Origin: Meiothermus ruber DSM 1279
GTDB lineage: Bacteria > Deinococcota > Deinococci > Deinococcales > Thermaceae
Reading direction: 5' to 3'
Length of the DNA stretch: 64,000 nt
NCBI RefSeq assembly: GCF_000024425.1
Contig: NC_013946.1
Span: 2,232,001 to 2,296,000 of the forward strand
Below are positions 1-21,918 of this stretch, in pieces (position 1 is the first letter of the stretch; every line of letters begins with the position of its first letter). A program made the position numbers and the translations under genes. Under the pieces are notes generated by a model that did no database searches, was not told where the DNA came from, and worked only from the letters and a program-made list of their open reading frames with translations.

Positions 1-668
1 ACGGTCTGCAGAATGCCCGGATGGCGCACCAGCACTTCCCAGCCGGTCATGAGCATGTCGTCGAAGGTGAGCAGGCCCTCCTCGAGCCGCACCTGCTCCA
101 TCAGTTTGTACAGCTCCAGGTACCACTCGAGTTCCTCGGGCGCCTGGGCCTGCGAAGCCACCCGCAGGGCCGCTGGGGGCAGCCCGGCCCCTTTCAGATC
201 GGCATACTGCAGGTTGCCCTTGCAGGCCCCCACGTAGCTCAAAAAGTCCTCGGCCTCGAGGTTCTCCAGCTCGGAGACCCACTCGAGCTTCAACTCGCGG
301 GCCCGTCGCAGGGTGCGCTGCAACAGGGCCTGTTCAGAGCCCTCATCCCTGACCTCGGCCAGCTTCAAAAGCCCCTCCGAGGCCGCCTTGCGCACGATGC
401 GGTAGCCCAGGGCGTGCAGGGTGGAGACCTGGATGGCCTGGGTGTGGGGCCAGCGCGCAAGCGCCCGCTTGAGATCGTCCACCGCCAGGCGGCTAAAGGA
501 GGTAGCCAGAATCTTGCGGGGCTCGAAGACCCGCTCCCGCACCAGGCGCTCGAGGCGGTGCACCAGTGCGGTGGTCTTGCCGGCCCCGGCCACCGCAAAC
601 ACCAGCGCCGGCCCCTCGTTGTGGGCTACGATGGCCTGTTGTTCGTCGGTTAGTCGCAAATCAGGCAT
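1..668 (-). CDS. UvrD/Rep-family DNA helicase, N-terminal part (cut by left window edge)
   Basis: The first 222 residues of a superfamily 1 helicase are visible. The Q-motif region (LTDEQQAIV, residues 6-14) is followed by Walker A AVAGAGKTT (25-33), a Thr-Ser region (ILATSFSRLAVDDLKRAL) and a FDDML motif near the edge. The catalytic DExx box and motifs III-VI lie outside the window. ATG is at 668-666 and overlaps the stop of the upstream DUF4276 gene by 8 bases, so translation is probably coupled. The N-terminus differs from the usual housekeeping UvrD/PcrA start (LN..Q..AV..GAGSGKTR). Role is inferred: ATP-driven DNA unwinding, possibly the helicase arm of a defence cassette; a stand-alone repair helicase is the alternative. 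Confidence 0.85.
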   Translation of the reverse strand, partial: MPDLRLTDEQQAIVAHNEGPALVFAVAGAGKTTALVHRLERLVRERVFEPRKILATSFSRLAVDDLKRALARWPHTQAIQVSTLHALGYRIVRKAASEGLLKLAEVRDEGSEQALLQRTLRRARELKLEWVSELENLEAEDFLSYVGACKGNLQYADLKGAGLPPAALRVASQAQAPEELEWYLELYKLMEQVRLEEGLLTFDDMLMTGWEVLVRHPGILQT

Positions 669-17483: not shown

Positions 17484-17566
17484 CTGCCAGATTCCTGGGG
17501 GAAATCCGGGAGGGCCCAAAGATGAGAGATTGGGCCTGGCAGGTTAAAGGCCCCTTGACTTTAACC
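17484..17566 (+). other. Structured intergenic region (nested perfect stems)
   Basis: Between udp and the first M23 gene the DNA can fold as outer stem CTGCCAG/CTGGCAG (17484-17490 with 17536-17542) enclosing CCTGG/CCGGG (17494-17498 with 17506-17510) and GGCCCAA/TTGGGCC (17513-17519 with 17530-17536), followed by GGTTAAAG/CTTTAACC (17542-17549 with 17559-17566). It resembles a small multibranch RNA, but no known riboswitch consensus was recognised. A promoter-like TTGACT...TACTTA (17555-17584) overlaps the last hairpin, so a DNA operator role is also possible. Confidence 0.4.
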
Positions 17567-17593
17567 ATAGGGCGGCGTTACTTATAGCACCTG

Positions 17594-18496
17594 ATGCCGC
17601 CCCGTCGACACCCCGTGCGTTATACCCTGTGGCTGGCCCGCACCGGCGCCGCCCCACGGGCGTTTTCCCTACCCGCCTGGGTTCCGCTGGTGGTGGTGCT
17701 GGTGCTGCTGGTCTGGAGCGGCCTGAACCTCTGGCTCTGGCAGCGCACCGCCGAGATGCGCAGCCTGCAGATTCAGTTGGTAAGCCTGTCGGATCAGGCC
17801 CGCAAGCTCAACAACCAGTTGGCGGCTGAGCGCACCCGCAACAACGCCCTCAGCCAGGATGCCCAGAGCATTCTGAAGCAGCTCGAGGTGCTCGAAAAAG
17901 AGATCAACACCCTGCGCGAGCGGGCCGGGATGCCCAAAATCAAACTCACCCCAACCCGCAACGAGGGCGGTGGGCGCGGGGGGGCCGCGACCCCGGCGGC
18001 CCTCGAGGATGTCTTAAAGTATGCCGACCAACAGACCAGGGCTTTTTCCGAGAAGCTGAGTGAGGTATCGCCGGCGCTCAACGAGGCCCTCGAGCGGGAA
18101 GCCGCCATGCCCTACGGCTACCCCATCCGCGGGCAGACCCGGATCACCTCGTATTTCGGCTACCGTCGCAACCCTTTTGGCTGGGGCTTTGAGTTTCACA
18201 ACGGGCTGGACTTCCCTGCCTCTTACGGCACCCCCGTGCGGGTCACCGGGGCCGGCAGGGTCATCGAGACCGGCTGGAAAGGCCCCTTTGGCCTGGCGGT
18301 GGTGGTGGATCACGGCTACGGCTACCGCACCCTGTACGGGCACCTATCCTCCATCACGGTACAGGTTGGGCAGCGCCTCGAGCGCGGCGACCAGGTGGGG
18401 CTGGTGGGTTCGACGGGCCGCTCAACCGGGCCCCACCTGCACTACACGGTCTTCCGCAACGGGAGCGAGGTTAACCCGATTCCCTACCTAGACTAG
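17594..18496 (+). CDS. Membrane-anchored M23 (LytM) peptidoglycan endopeptidase
   Basis: 300 residues: cytoplasmic basic start, membrane span about 27-48, coiled coil about 50-115 (EMRSLQIQLVSLSDQARKLN), low-complexity linker GGGRGGAAT, then an M23 domain with zinc ligands in HNGLDF (His202, Asp206) and HLH (281-283). All catalytic ligands are present, so it should be an active cell-wall endopeptidase facing the periplasm. It is the first gene of an M23-bactofilin-M23 set. Confidence 0.93.
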   Translation: MPPRRHPVRYTLWLARTGAAPRAFSLPAWVPLVVVLVLLVWSGLNLWLWQRTAEMRSLQIQLVSLSDQARKLNNQLAAERTRNNALSQDAQSILKQLEVLEKEINTLRERAGMPKIKLTPTRNEGGGRGGAATPAALEDVLKYADQQTRAFSEKLSEVSPALNEALEREAAMPYGYPIRGQTRITSYFGYRRNPFGWGFEFHNGLDFPASYGTPVRVTGAGRVIETGWKGPFGLAVVVDHGYGYRTLYGHLSSITVQVGQRLERGDQVGLVGSTGRSTGPHLHYTVFRNGSEVNPIPYLD

Positions 18497-18533
18497 CAGG
18501 CCGCGGCAAGTTTGACGGGCAGGGGTGTAAACT

Positions 18534-18929
18534 ATGGCGGTGTTAGGTGGAGGACGTAAACCCAATCCGGCTGCGCTCACCTACCTGAGTGAGGGCAGTG
18601 AGATCGAAGGCAACCTTAGAGCCCCGGGCAACACCCGCATCGACGGGAAGATCAAAGGATCGGTGCTCGTCGAGGGCGACCTCGAGATCGGCAGCAACGC
18701 CCAGATCGAAGGCGATCAGATTAAGGCCAACAACATCATCGTTCACGGGCAGGTTAGCGCCCAAGTGATCGCGCTGGGCAAGCTGCACATCACCAAGAGC
18801 GCCCGGGTAGAAGGGGACGTGCGGGCCATGTCCCTGGATGTGGAGGCCGGAGCGGTGTTTGTGGGCCGCAGCCAGACGGGCGAGCCCAGGGCGCTGCCCC
18901 AGAACACCAAGACAGGCAGCAACCAGTAG
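18534..18929 (+). CDS. Bactofilin cytoskeletal protein
   Basis: 131 residues with the bactofilin beta-helix repeat pattern: EGSEIEGNLRAPGNTRIDGK, GDLEIGSNAQIEGD, IVHGQVSAQV, HITKSARVEGDV. Flexible tails flank a central domain of about 100 residues. Bactofilins polymerise without nucleotide and localise cell-wall enzymes. Its position between two M23 endopeptidase genes mirrors bactofilin-LytM pairs in Helicobacter and other bacteria, so it probably positions these enzymes. Confidence 0.93.
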   Translation: MAVLGGGRKPNPAALTYLSEGSEIEGNLRAPGNTRIDGKIKGSVLVEGDLEIGSNAQIEGDQIKANNIIVHGQVSAQVIALGKLHITKSARVEGDVRAMSLDVEAGAVFVGRSQTGEPRALPQNTKTGSNQ

Positions 18930-19010
18930 CCCAGGCCACCCAGCCCCTCTTTTGGGGGAGGGTCAGCCGTCACCGAGGCCCAGGCCTTCTTGCTGTAGGC
19001 TAAATGGGTC

Positions 19011-19961
19011 ATGGCGAGAGCGCCCCACCCCCTCACCTCGAGCGTCACCCTGAGGGTGCCGCTGTGGGTGGTGGCGGCTTTGCCGCTGCTGCTGGTGGGG
19101 CTGGTGCTGCTGGGGTGGAGCAAAAGCTCCCTCGAGCGTCAGCAACTGGCCCGGCTGGAGGCCCAGGCCTATAAGCTAAGCTTGGAGCTCGAGGCCGAAA
19201 AAAGCCGCAACGAGGCCTACGGCATCGAGGCTGTTCAACTGCAACAGAGCCTCAAGGTGCTGGAAAGCGAAATCAACCGGCTCCGCGCCAAGGCCGGCCT
19301 GCCCAAGCTGCACCTGCCTGCGCCGGCCCAGCCCAACCCGGTGCCCAGGCCCGACGGGGCCCCTCGAGGGGCCGGCGAGCCCATCGATCTGGGCGCTCTG
19401 CTGCTCAGCCTGCGCTCTCAGGTGGAAGGTTTTGCAGCGGAGCTCGAGGCCACTGCCGTTGCACTCAACAACCCACTCCCCCCCGATCCCCGCCCTGGGC
19501 GTGTGCTGCGGCGGCCCGCCCTCCAGGCCAGCCCCCCCAGCCCGACCCAGTTCGTACCAACCGGTCTGCCCTTGCTGGTCGAAGCCCCGCTCACCTCCAC
19601 CTTCGGCTACCGCTCCAATCCGTTTGGCGGTGGGGCCTACGAATTTCACAACGGCGTAGACTTTGCCGCACCCGAGGGCACGCCGGTCTATGCCACCGCG
19701 GCCGGAACGGTGAGCGAGATGGGCTGGAACCCCATCTTTGGCCTGATGGTTCTAATAGACCACGGCAATGGCCTGCACACCCTGTACGGACACCTTTCCT
19801 CCACCTACGTCGAAAAAGGCCAGCAGGTTCAACAAAGCGCCTTGATCGGTGCAGTCGGTTCAACCGGGCGCTCCACCGGCCCGCACCTGCACTACACCGT
19901 ATACCGGTATGGGGTGGCGGTTGACCCACTCCCCTATGTGGGTTATGCCGCAGTTCGCTAA
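19011..19961 (+). CDS. Second membrane-anchored M23 (LytM) endopeptidase
   Basis: 316 residues: membrane span about 20-40, coiled coil about 42-100 (RLEAQAYKLSLELEAEKSRN), Pro-rich linker, M23 domain with HNGVDF (His213, Asp217) and HLH (292-294). It is a paralogue of the gene at 17594, with the same build but an unrelated linker. Zinc ligands are intact. It follows the bactofilin gene by 81 bases on the same strand and closes the set. Confidence 0.93.
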   Translation: MARAPHPLTSSVTLRVPLWVVAALPLLLVGLVLLGWSKSSLERQQLARLEAQAYKLSLELEAEKSRNEAYGIEAVQLQQSLKVLESEINRLRAKAGLPKLHLPAPAQPNPVPRPDGAPRGAGEPIDLGALLLSLRSQVEGFAAELEATAVALNNPLPPDPRPGRVLRRPALQASPPSPTQFVPTGLPLLVEAPLTSTFGYRSNPFGGGAYEFHNGVDFAAPEGTPVYATAAGTVSEMGWNPIFGLMVLIDHGNGLHTLYGHLSSTYVEKGQQVQQSALIGAVGSTGRSTGPHLHYTVYRYGVAVDPLPYVGYAAVR

Positions 19962-20063
19962 GTGCCGCACCCATGCCGATTCAGCCGCGCCTCGGCTCGC
20001 ACAGCCCTATACTTGAACCCCGTCCAAACAAGGGGGGTTTCGCCTTATTCTCATTCTGCGGTA

Positions 20064-20069
20064 TAAGAT
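20064..20069 (+). promoter_or_regulatory. -10 box of accD, leaderless type
   Basis: TAAGAT ends 8 bases before the accD ATG and no SD is visible. The -35 region is poor. Confidence 0.4.
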
Positions 20070-20077
20070 AGGGCGTT

Positions 20078-20932
20078 ATGGCCTTAGAGCGGCTTTTCCG
20101 CCGTCGCCGGGCACAGGGCGAGGCAAGGGACATTCCCGAGCTATGGGTCAAGTGCCCCAAGTGCGACGCGCAGATATATAAAAAAGACCTCGAGACCAAC
20201 CTGCACGTCTGCCCCAAGTGCGAGCACCACCTGCGGCTCTCGGCCGACAAGCGCATCGCCATGCTGGCCGATGCAGGCAGCTTCGAGCAGATCACCGGCC
20301 TCAAACCCACCGACCCCCTGGGCTTTGTGGATACCGAGCCCTACCCCAAGCGGCTCGAGCGCTACCAAAAGGAAGCCGGGCGGCCCGATGCCATCGTGGG
20401 GGGGCGCTGCACCATTGGGGGCGTGGAAAGCGTGCTGCTGGTGATGGACTACGCCTTTGCCGGGGGTTCGATGGGCAGCGTGGTGGGTGAGGAAATTACC
20501 CGCGGCATCGAACTGGCCGCCCAGGAGAACCGGGCGGTGGTGATCGTCGCAGTCTCGGGCGGGGCCCGGATGCAGGAAGCGGCTTTATCCCTGATGCAGA
20601 TGGCCAAGACCACCCTGGCCCTCGACCGGTTGTGGGCGCAAAAACTGCCCTACATCTCCATCCTCACCGACCCCACCACCGGCGGGGTCACGGCCAGCTT
20701 CGCGGCCATCGCCGATGTGATTCTGGCCGAGCCCGGGGCCCTGATCGGCTTTGCCGGGCCTCGAGTGATTAAGCAAACCATCCGCCAGGACTTACCCGAG
20801 GGCTTCCAGCGCTCGGAGTTTTTGCTCAAGCACGGCATGGTAGACCAGGTGGTGGATCGGCGCCGGCTGAAGGAAACCGTGGCGCGCATCCTCAAGCTGC
20901 TGCACCCCAGGACGGTGAACCATGCAGGCTAG
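20078..20932 (+). CDS. accD: Acetyl-CoA carboxylase carboxyltransferase beta subunit
   Basis: 284 residues. An N-terminal zinc ribbon has Cys26, Cys29, Cys45 and Cys48 (CPKC twice), followed by the crotonase-fold carboxyltransferase domain with [12 protein letters not shown] and SGGARMQE. With the alpha subunit it transfers CO2 from carboxybiotin to acetyl-CoA, the first committed step of fatty acid synthesis. accA follows on the same strand after about 38 bases, an operon seen in many bacteria. Confidence 0.96.
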
Positions 20933-20970
20933 CCTTCAAGTCAGACACCAACCGCTAAAAGGGGGTGCTT

Positions 20971-21918
20971 ATGCCGCTTGAGTTCGAAAAGCCGATCGAG
21001 GAGCTCGAGGCCAAAATCGCCGAGCTGGAGGGCTTTGCGACCAGCAGCGGGGTCGACCTCTCCGGCGAGCTCCAGGTTCTGCGGGAGCGCCTGGCCCAGC
21101 TCAAATCGGAGACCTTCGATAACCTCTCTCGCTGGGAGCGGGTGCAGCTGGCCCGTGCCCCCGGACGCCCCACCACCCTCGACGTGATCGGGGGCATCAT
21201 GACCGAGTTTGTCGAACTGTACGGTGACCGAACCTACGGCGAAGACCCCGCGGTGGTGGGCGGCCTGGCCCGCTTTGAAGGCACCTCGGTGGTGGTGGTG
21301 GGGCACCAGAAAGGCCGCGACACCAAAGAAAACATCCGGCGCAACTTCGCCATGCCCCACCCCGAGGGTTACCGCAAGGCCATGCGTATGATGGATCTGG
21401 CCGACCGCTTCGGGCGGCCCTTCATCGCCTTCATCGACACCCCCGGCGCCTACCCCGGCGTCTCCGCCGAGGAGCGCGGCCAGGCCTGGGTGATCGCCCA
21501 GAGCATCCAGCGCATGGCCCGCCTAAGGGTGCCGGCCATCGCCATCATCCTGGGCGAGGGCGGCTCGGGCGGGGCGCTGGCCATTGGGGTAGGCAACCGC
21601 GTGCTGATCCTGGAAAACGCCTGGTACTCGGTGATCTCGCCCGAGTCCTGCGCGGCCATCCTCTGGCGCGACGCCAAAGAAGCCGCCAAAGCCGCCGAAG
21701 CCCTCAAACTCTCGGCCCCCGATCTCTTGAACCTGGGCATCGTGGATCGGATCATCCCCGAACCCAGCGGTGGGGCCCACCGCGACCCCGCCGCCACCCT
21801 GGCGAATATCAAACAGGCTTTGCAGGCTACGCTTGCCGAACTCGCTGGCCTTAGCCCAGAGCAGCTATTCGAAGACCGCTACCGGCGGTTCAGGGGGCTG
21901 GGGCGCTACCAGGCCTAG
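20971..21918 (+). CDS. accA: Acetyl-CoA carboxylase carboxyltransferase alpha subunit
   Basis: 315 residues from ATG at 20971 ([20 protein letters not shown]); a GTG two codons earlier is open, but the AAAGGGGGTG just upstream is a good SD for the ATG. Family blocks include [43 protein letters not shown] and [11 protein letters not shown]. It forms the A2B2 carboxyltransferase with AccD. Confidence 0.96.

Follow-up and report, generated by a model that had tools for sequence, protein, structure and literature searches.

The 64,000-nucleotide stretch of Meiothermus ruber DSM 1279 DNA analysed here (the window) carries, at 17594–19961 (+), three same-strand open reading frames that occupy exactly the span given in the first-pass annotation: an upstream M23 endopeptidase gene (M1), a bactofilin gene and a downstream M23 endopeptidase gene (M2), whose features are listed in Table 1. 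The bactofilin domain scores 88.1 bits in Pfam against a curated cut-off of 27.9, and its closest solved structure is 6ria (3.7e-30), which we take to be the Thermus thermophilus bactofilin. A genome search found it to be the sole bactofilin copy in M. ruber, where M1 and M2 are two of seven M23 genes. The same M1–bactofilin–M2 order is seen in 18 genomes belonging to two genera, so the arrangement is not due to chance.

Table 1. Features of the M1–bactofilin–M2 locus (genes and upstream elements in window positions, protein segments in residues)
Feature	Position	Strand	Description
Promoter-like element before M1	17555..17585	+	TTGACT, 18-base spacer, TACTTAT; ends 8 bases before ATG
M1, LmdC-type M23 endopeptidase	17594..18496	+	300 aa; Pfam Peptidase_M23 2.3e-32
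Bactofilin	18534..18929	+	131 aa; Pfam Bactofilin 4.7e-25
Promoter-/operator-like element before M2	18961..19001	+	GGTCAGCCGTCACC ... TAGGCT; ends 9 bases before ATG
M2, M1 paralogue with intact M23 site	19011..19961	+	316 aa; Pfam Peptidase_M23 1.8e-35
M1 cytoplasmic beta-hairpin	residues 9-14 and 22-27		two strands directly before membrane helix (model)
M1 membrane helix + coiled coil	residues 29-111		model
M1 M23 domain	about residues 176-298		
M2 membrane helix + coiled coil	residues 18-94		model; cytoplasmic hairpin absent

Both endopeptidases have complete zinc-binding and catalytic motifs (H202xxxD206, YGHL at 248 and HLH at 281–283 in M1; H213xxxD217, YGHL at 259 and HLH at 292–294 in M2), and both M23 motifs are present in 60 M1 rows plus that of locus L122 and in all M2 rows that were checked. 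Structure models give each protein one N-terminal membrane helix that continues into a coiled coil. Open reading frames, Pfam matches, motifs and models all agree with the first-pass description of two intact, membrane-anchored M23 (LytM) enzymes with coiled coils sandwiching a bactofilin, and we infer that M1 and M2 are catalytically active and could affect cell shape. The two proteins differ at their N-termini. The M1 model has a mean pLDDT of 83.6, with moderate confidence in the cytoplasmic hairpin (block means of 75–78), and the M1 tail can be aligned with the tails of bactofilin-adjacent M23 proteins of beta- and gammaproteobacteria; hairpin-like tails precede the membrane helix in many bactofilin-adjacent M23 partners outside the phylum. 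The M2 tail, of about 17 residues, is uncertain in its model (pLDDT 49–68), and the M. ruber reading frame could extend at most four residues upstream of the M2 start. A profile of the tail, made from 21 relatives with the window's M1 and M2 excluded, gave at least 10.8 bits for all 61 M1 sequences (the f4 and f3 family M1s overlap the training set, and those of family f1 are independent of it) and at most 3.5 bits for all 18 M2 sequences, the incomplete M2 of locus L057 being left out of the scoring. The pair that had been described as symmetrical is thus symmetrical in gene order only: the docking hairpin is present in M1 and absent from M2 in 18 of 18 orthologues.

Among 17 genomes, the tail is the best conserved segment of M1 (mean identity 0.86, with 0.80 for its M23 domain), and the M2 tail is short and variable (0.55, with 0.80 for its M23 domain). 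The coil has an identity of 0.72 among M2s and of 0.46 between M1 and M2 over 54 positions. Pairwise dN is far below dS in both genes, which shows purifying selection on both coding sequences, and M2 changes faster outside its M23 domain. The low dN and the conserved catalytic domain rule out M2 as a decaying gene, and the complete M23 motifs rule it out as an inactive partner of the Helicobacter pylori Csd2 kind.

The distribution of these genes was followed through 111 Deinococcota genomes, 84 of which have a bactofilin match; genus and family labels in this survey are coded and their names inferred, except that g3 was identified as Calidithermus by its match to a named record. In 60 of these 84 loci the gene directly upstream of bactofilin is M1: 16/16 in the same genus as M. 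ruber (g1), 2/2 in its sister genus (g2), 25/26 in the Thermus-like genus g4, 1/1 in g5, 12/12 in family f4 and 4/4 in family f3; it is directly upstream in 0/2 Calidithermus loci and 0/21 loci of the Trueperaceae-like family f5. In one Thermus-like locus (L047, genome G061) all that is left of M1 ahead of the intact bactofilin gene is its final 42 residues, which could be either a natural loss or an assembly fault. M2 follows bactofilin only in the 16 g1 and two g2 loci (cut by a contig end in L057), and it was found beside bactofilin in 0/26 Thermus-like genomes. Two of the 18 g1 genomes have no bactofilin match, and both are draft assemblies: in one the end of M2 and accD lie at a contig edge, and the other, in 490 contigs, has no close M1 or M2. 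In Calidithermus chliarophilus 4.6 kb separate M1 from the bactofilin gene downstream of it; the opposite-strand genes in between (L122, 3255–7678) we take from their translations to be ribonucleotide-reductase-like, and M2 is about 250 kb away; C. roseus contigs end at the locus, so the neighbours there cannot be read. The expectation that the triplet would be found in other Thermaceae is thus borne out in all 16 g1 loci and both g2 loci, and fails in the 26 Thermus-like genomes and in C. chliarophilus, whose M2 is unlinked.

The genes that follow are also conserved. Across the phylum bactofilin is followed by accD-accA, encoding the acetyl-CoA carboxylase carboxyltransferase (18534–21918 in the window; loci L038–L090), as is the case in 26/26 Thermus-like, 12/12 f4, 18/21 f5 and 1/4 f3 loci; of the remaining three f5 loci, one has no accD-accA and two are too short to judge. 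This adjacency, which may link the bactofilin module with the making of membrane lipids, occurred in 0/148 bactofilin loci from outside the phylum. That outside sample comprised 70 loci from Pseudomonadota (the best 30 matches plus 40 taken down the ranking, of 155 genomes with a match), 30 from Spirochaetota (of 100), 30 from Bacteroidota (of 71) and 18 from named records; 90 of its loci reach only 1.5 kb to each side, most genomes are represented by one bactofilin, and Campylobacterota were left out. Within it, a same-strand M23 gene lies upstream of bactofilin in 56/148 loci, a downstream M23 gene is on the same strand in 1/148 and on the opposite strand in 7/148, and M23 genes on both sides were seen in 0/148.

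The 18 M2 sequences group as a single clade (100/100) in both of two trees, beside the M1s of Thermaceae and with those of f4 outside, and M2 is therefore, on this phylogeny, a Thermaceae-specific paralogue of M1. The trees place M2 outside all Thermaceae M1s; a duplication after the split from Thermus is nonetheless compatible with the data (AU p 0.314), and because it is not rejected, loss of M2 in Thermus and its never having been present there both stand. A hairpin-less, fast-evolving M23 gene sits directly before accD-accA, the usual place of M2, in the g5 genome G071 (L127, 2327–3226), whose M1 and bactofilin genes are elsewhere in the genome; this M23, which may or may not be an M2, has a long branch in the tree, and joining it to M2 gives an AU p of 0.047.

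Spacing and upstream elements bear on how closely the genes are coupled. The M1–bactofilin gap is 10 bases in all 25 Thermus-like loci that have M1 and 35–204 bases in Meiothermus (g1), so the argument for coupling of M1 to bactofilin is weaker in Meiothermus. A sigma-70 consensus scan of the locus region returned no promoter-like sites; TTGAC precedes M1 in 18/18 two-M23 genomes. The block GGTnA(N3-4)TCAC is found before M2 in 17/18 of these genomes, mostly followed by a TAnnCT-like hexamer, and before M1 and before bactofilin in 0/18 each; the relocated C. chliarophilus M2 has only a near-match upstream. This element is possibly both operator and promoter. A search for a wider regulon was negative, as the genome has 9 copies of the exact dyad GGTCANNNNTCACC and 10 of a reversed control pattern; since it is no commoner than the control, the positional conservation stands alone. 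At 20057–20080 of the window, only a few bases ahead of accD, a TATAAGAT stretch points to a leaderless promoter of its own for accDA. The first-pass annotation had named independent promoters together with no shape phenotype, or a lack of coupling in relatives, as grounds for giving up a paired machine; M2's own conserved promoter-like element would supply part of the former, and the absence of M2 from the Thermus-like loci and its unlinked position in C. chliarophilus part of the latter.

What do these three genes do together? As judged from sequence, M1 and bactofilin are a module of the known bactofilin–LmdC type, and the reading to which we give moderate confidence is that the endopeptidase of this module was duplicated in Thermaceae and the copies then became unequal, M1 docked and M2 undocked but active. 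M1 would be the ancestral partner: very probably it docks through its cytoplasmic beta-hairpin on filaments of membrane-bound bactofilin, the membrane helix and coiled coil would reach across into the periplasm, and there the M23 domain would cut peptidoglycan cross-links, so that the wall would be loosened where bactofilin polymerises. M2 would have kept the active M23 domain, the membrane anchor and the coiled coil and lost the hairpin, and because of this loss it should not bind bactofilin directly, which we consider probable. It would probably work in M1's zones through the related coiled coil, or else be a more diffuse second endopeptidase under separate regulation. Pairing of M2 with M1 has a precedent in Csd1–Csd2, two related M23 proteins that pair through helical parts (PMC5053510), yet the coil identity of 0.46 may reflect ancestry alone, and we hold such pairing to be plausible but rather doubtful. 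More speculative still, the wall-remodelling enzyme of the bactofilin may have been split by nature into one copy docked on the filament and another that is undocked but active. M1 and M2 may then differ in the bonds they cut in the Meiothermus wall, which is of the ornithine type (a literature search on Thermus muropeptides listed no relevant paper), or M2 may ride on M1 by a mixed coiled coil and so be a second endopeptidase, under separate regulation, that can be reached only by way of the docked M1.

The wall-remodelling module in a rod or filament former that had been proposed at the outset is supported, and M. ruber cells are rods with filamentous forms according to PMC3035268; the symmetrical set that went with it is not supported by the comparison of the two tails. 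A symmetrical machine would have one bactofilin directly recruit both enzymes, one to each side of a remodelling zone. Gene order speaks for it, as does the presence of all three genes together in 16/18 g1 genomes and both sister-genus genomes, the two g1 exceptions being drafts, in one of which a contig ends at M2 and accD, but M2 has no hairpin in any of the 18 orthologues and is missing beside bactofilin in 26/26 Thermus-like loci and unlinked in C. chliarophilus; we regard it as quite improbable and as the least likely of the three readings. The third holds that M2 no longer belongs to the module: it would be a free endopeptidase of general function under its own regulation, and tandem duplication alone would explain where it sits. 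This would account for its own conserved promoter-like element, its missing hairpin, its faster change outside the M23 domain and its relocation in C. chliarophilus, where just a near-match of the element precedes it. Against this, M2 has been kept beside bactofilin in 18/18 readable loci of two genera, and its coil is well conserved (0.72 among M2s); we think this reading unlikely, if less so than the symmetrical machine.

Bactofilins are widespread, and the few species in which their placement of wall enzymes is understood are mostly curved or stalked. Meiothermus offers a natural domain-removal comparison, in which paralogous endopeptidases with and without the docking hairpin lie beside one bactofilin, so that hairpin docking is directly testable; it does so in a straight rod that has a one-enzyme relative in Thermus. 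If M2 proves to be independent, the locus would be a warning against taking gene neighbourhood as machinery.

The bactofilin–M23 module and its occurrence in Deinococcus–Thermus are already published, the latter in a survey of 226 species that includes this group (PMC10945521). Two active M23 enzymes around a bactofilin, or loss of the hairpin, were not found in the literature searched by title and abstract opening, a search that mostly fell outside subscription papers. The closest described two-M23 case is csd1-csd2-ccmA of H. pylori, in which one bactofilin and two M23 homologues share a three-gene shape locus (ccmA with csd1 and csd2; PMC5053510, PMC9507126), a case overlooked in the first-pass premise that only one LytM enzyme is known per bactofilin. 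It differs in its second M23 protein: the site of Csd2 is degenerate and metal-free, and Csd2 pairs 1:1 with Csd1 as a heterodimer, whereas the M1 and M2 sites are both complete. It differs also in gene order, as ccmA adjoins csd1 and is not described as lying in between, whereas the Meiothermus bactofilin is central. CcmA did not bind Csd1 or Csd2 directly according to PMC10151779, and M23–bactofilin docking is therefore not universal. The Thermus M1–bactofilin–accD-accA cluster is alike in orthologous order and neighbours and differs by having no M2 and the 10-base gap. BacA–LmdC of Hyphomonas neptunium and Rhodospirillum rubrum (PMC10945521) is alike in the M23 gene upstream of bactofilin and, for M1, in the tail hairpin, membrane helix, coiled coil and M23 domain; there, changes in cytoplasmic beta-hairpin residues of R. 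rubrum LmdC abolish or disturb BacA-dependent placement, and the H. neptunium LmdC tail binds BacA (KD about 15 uM). To that arrangement Meiothermus adds M2, a downstream, motif-intact M23 protein without the hairpin.
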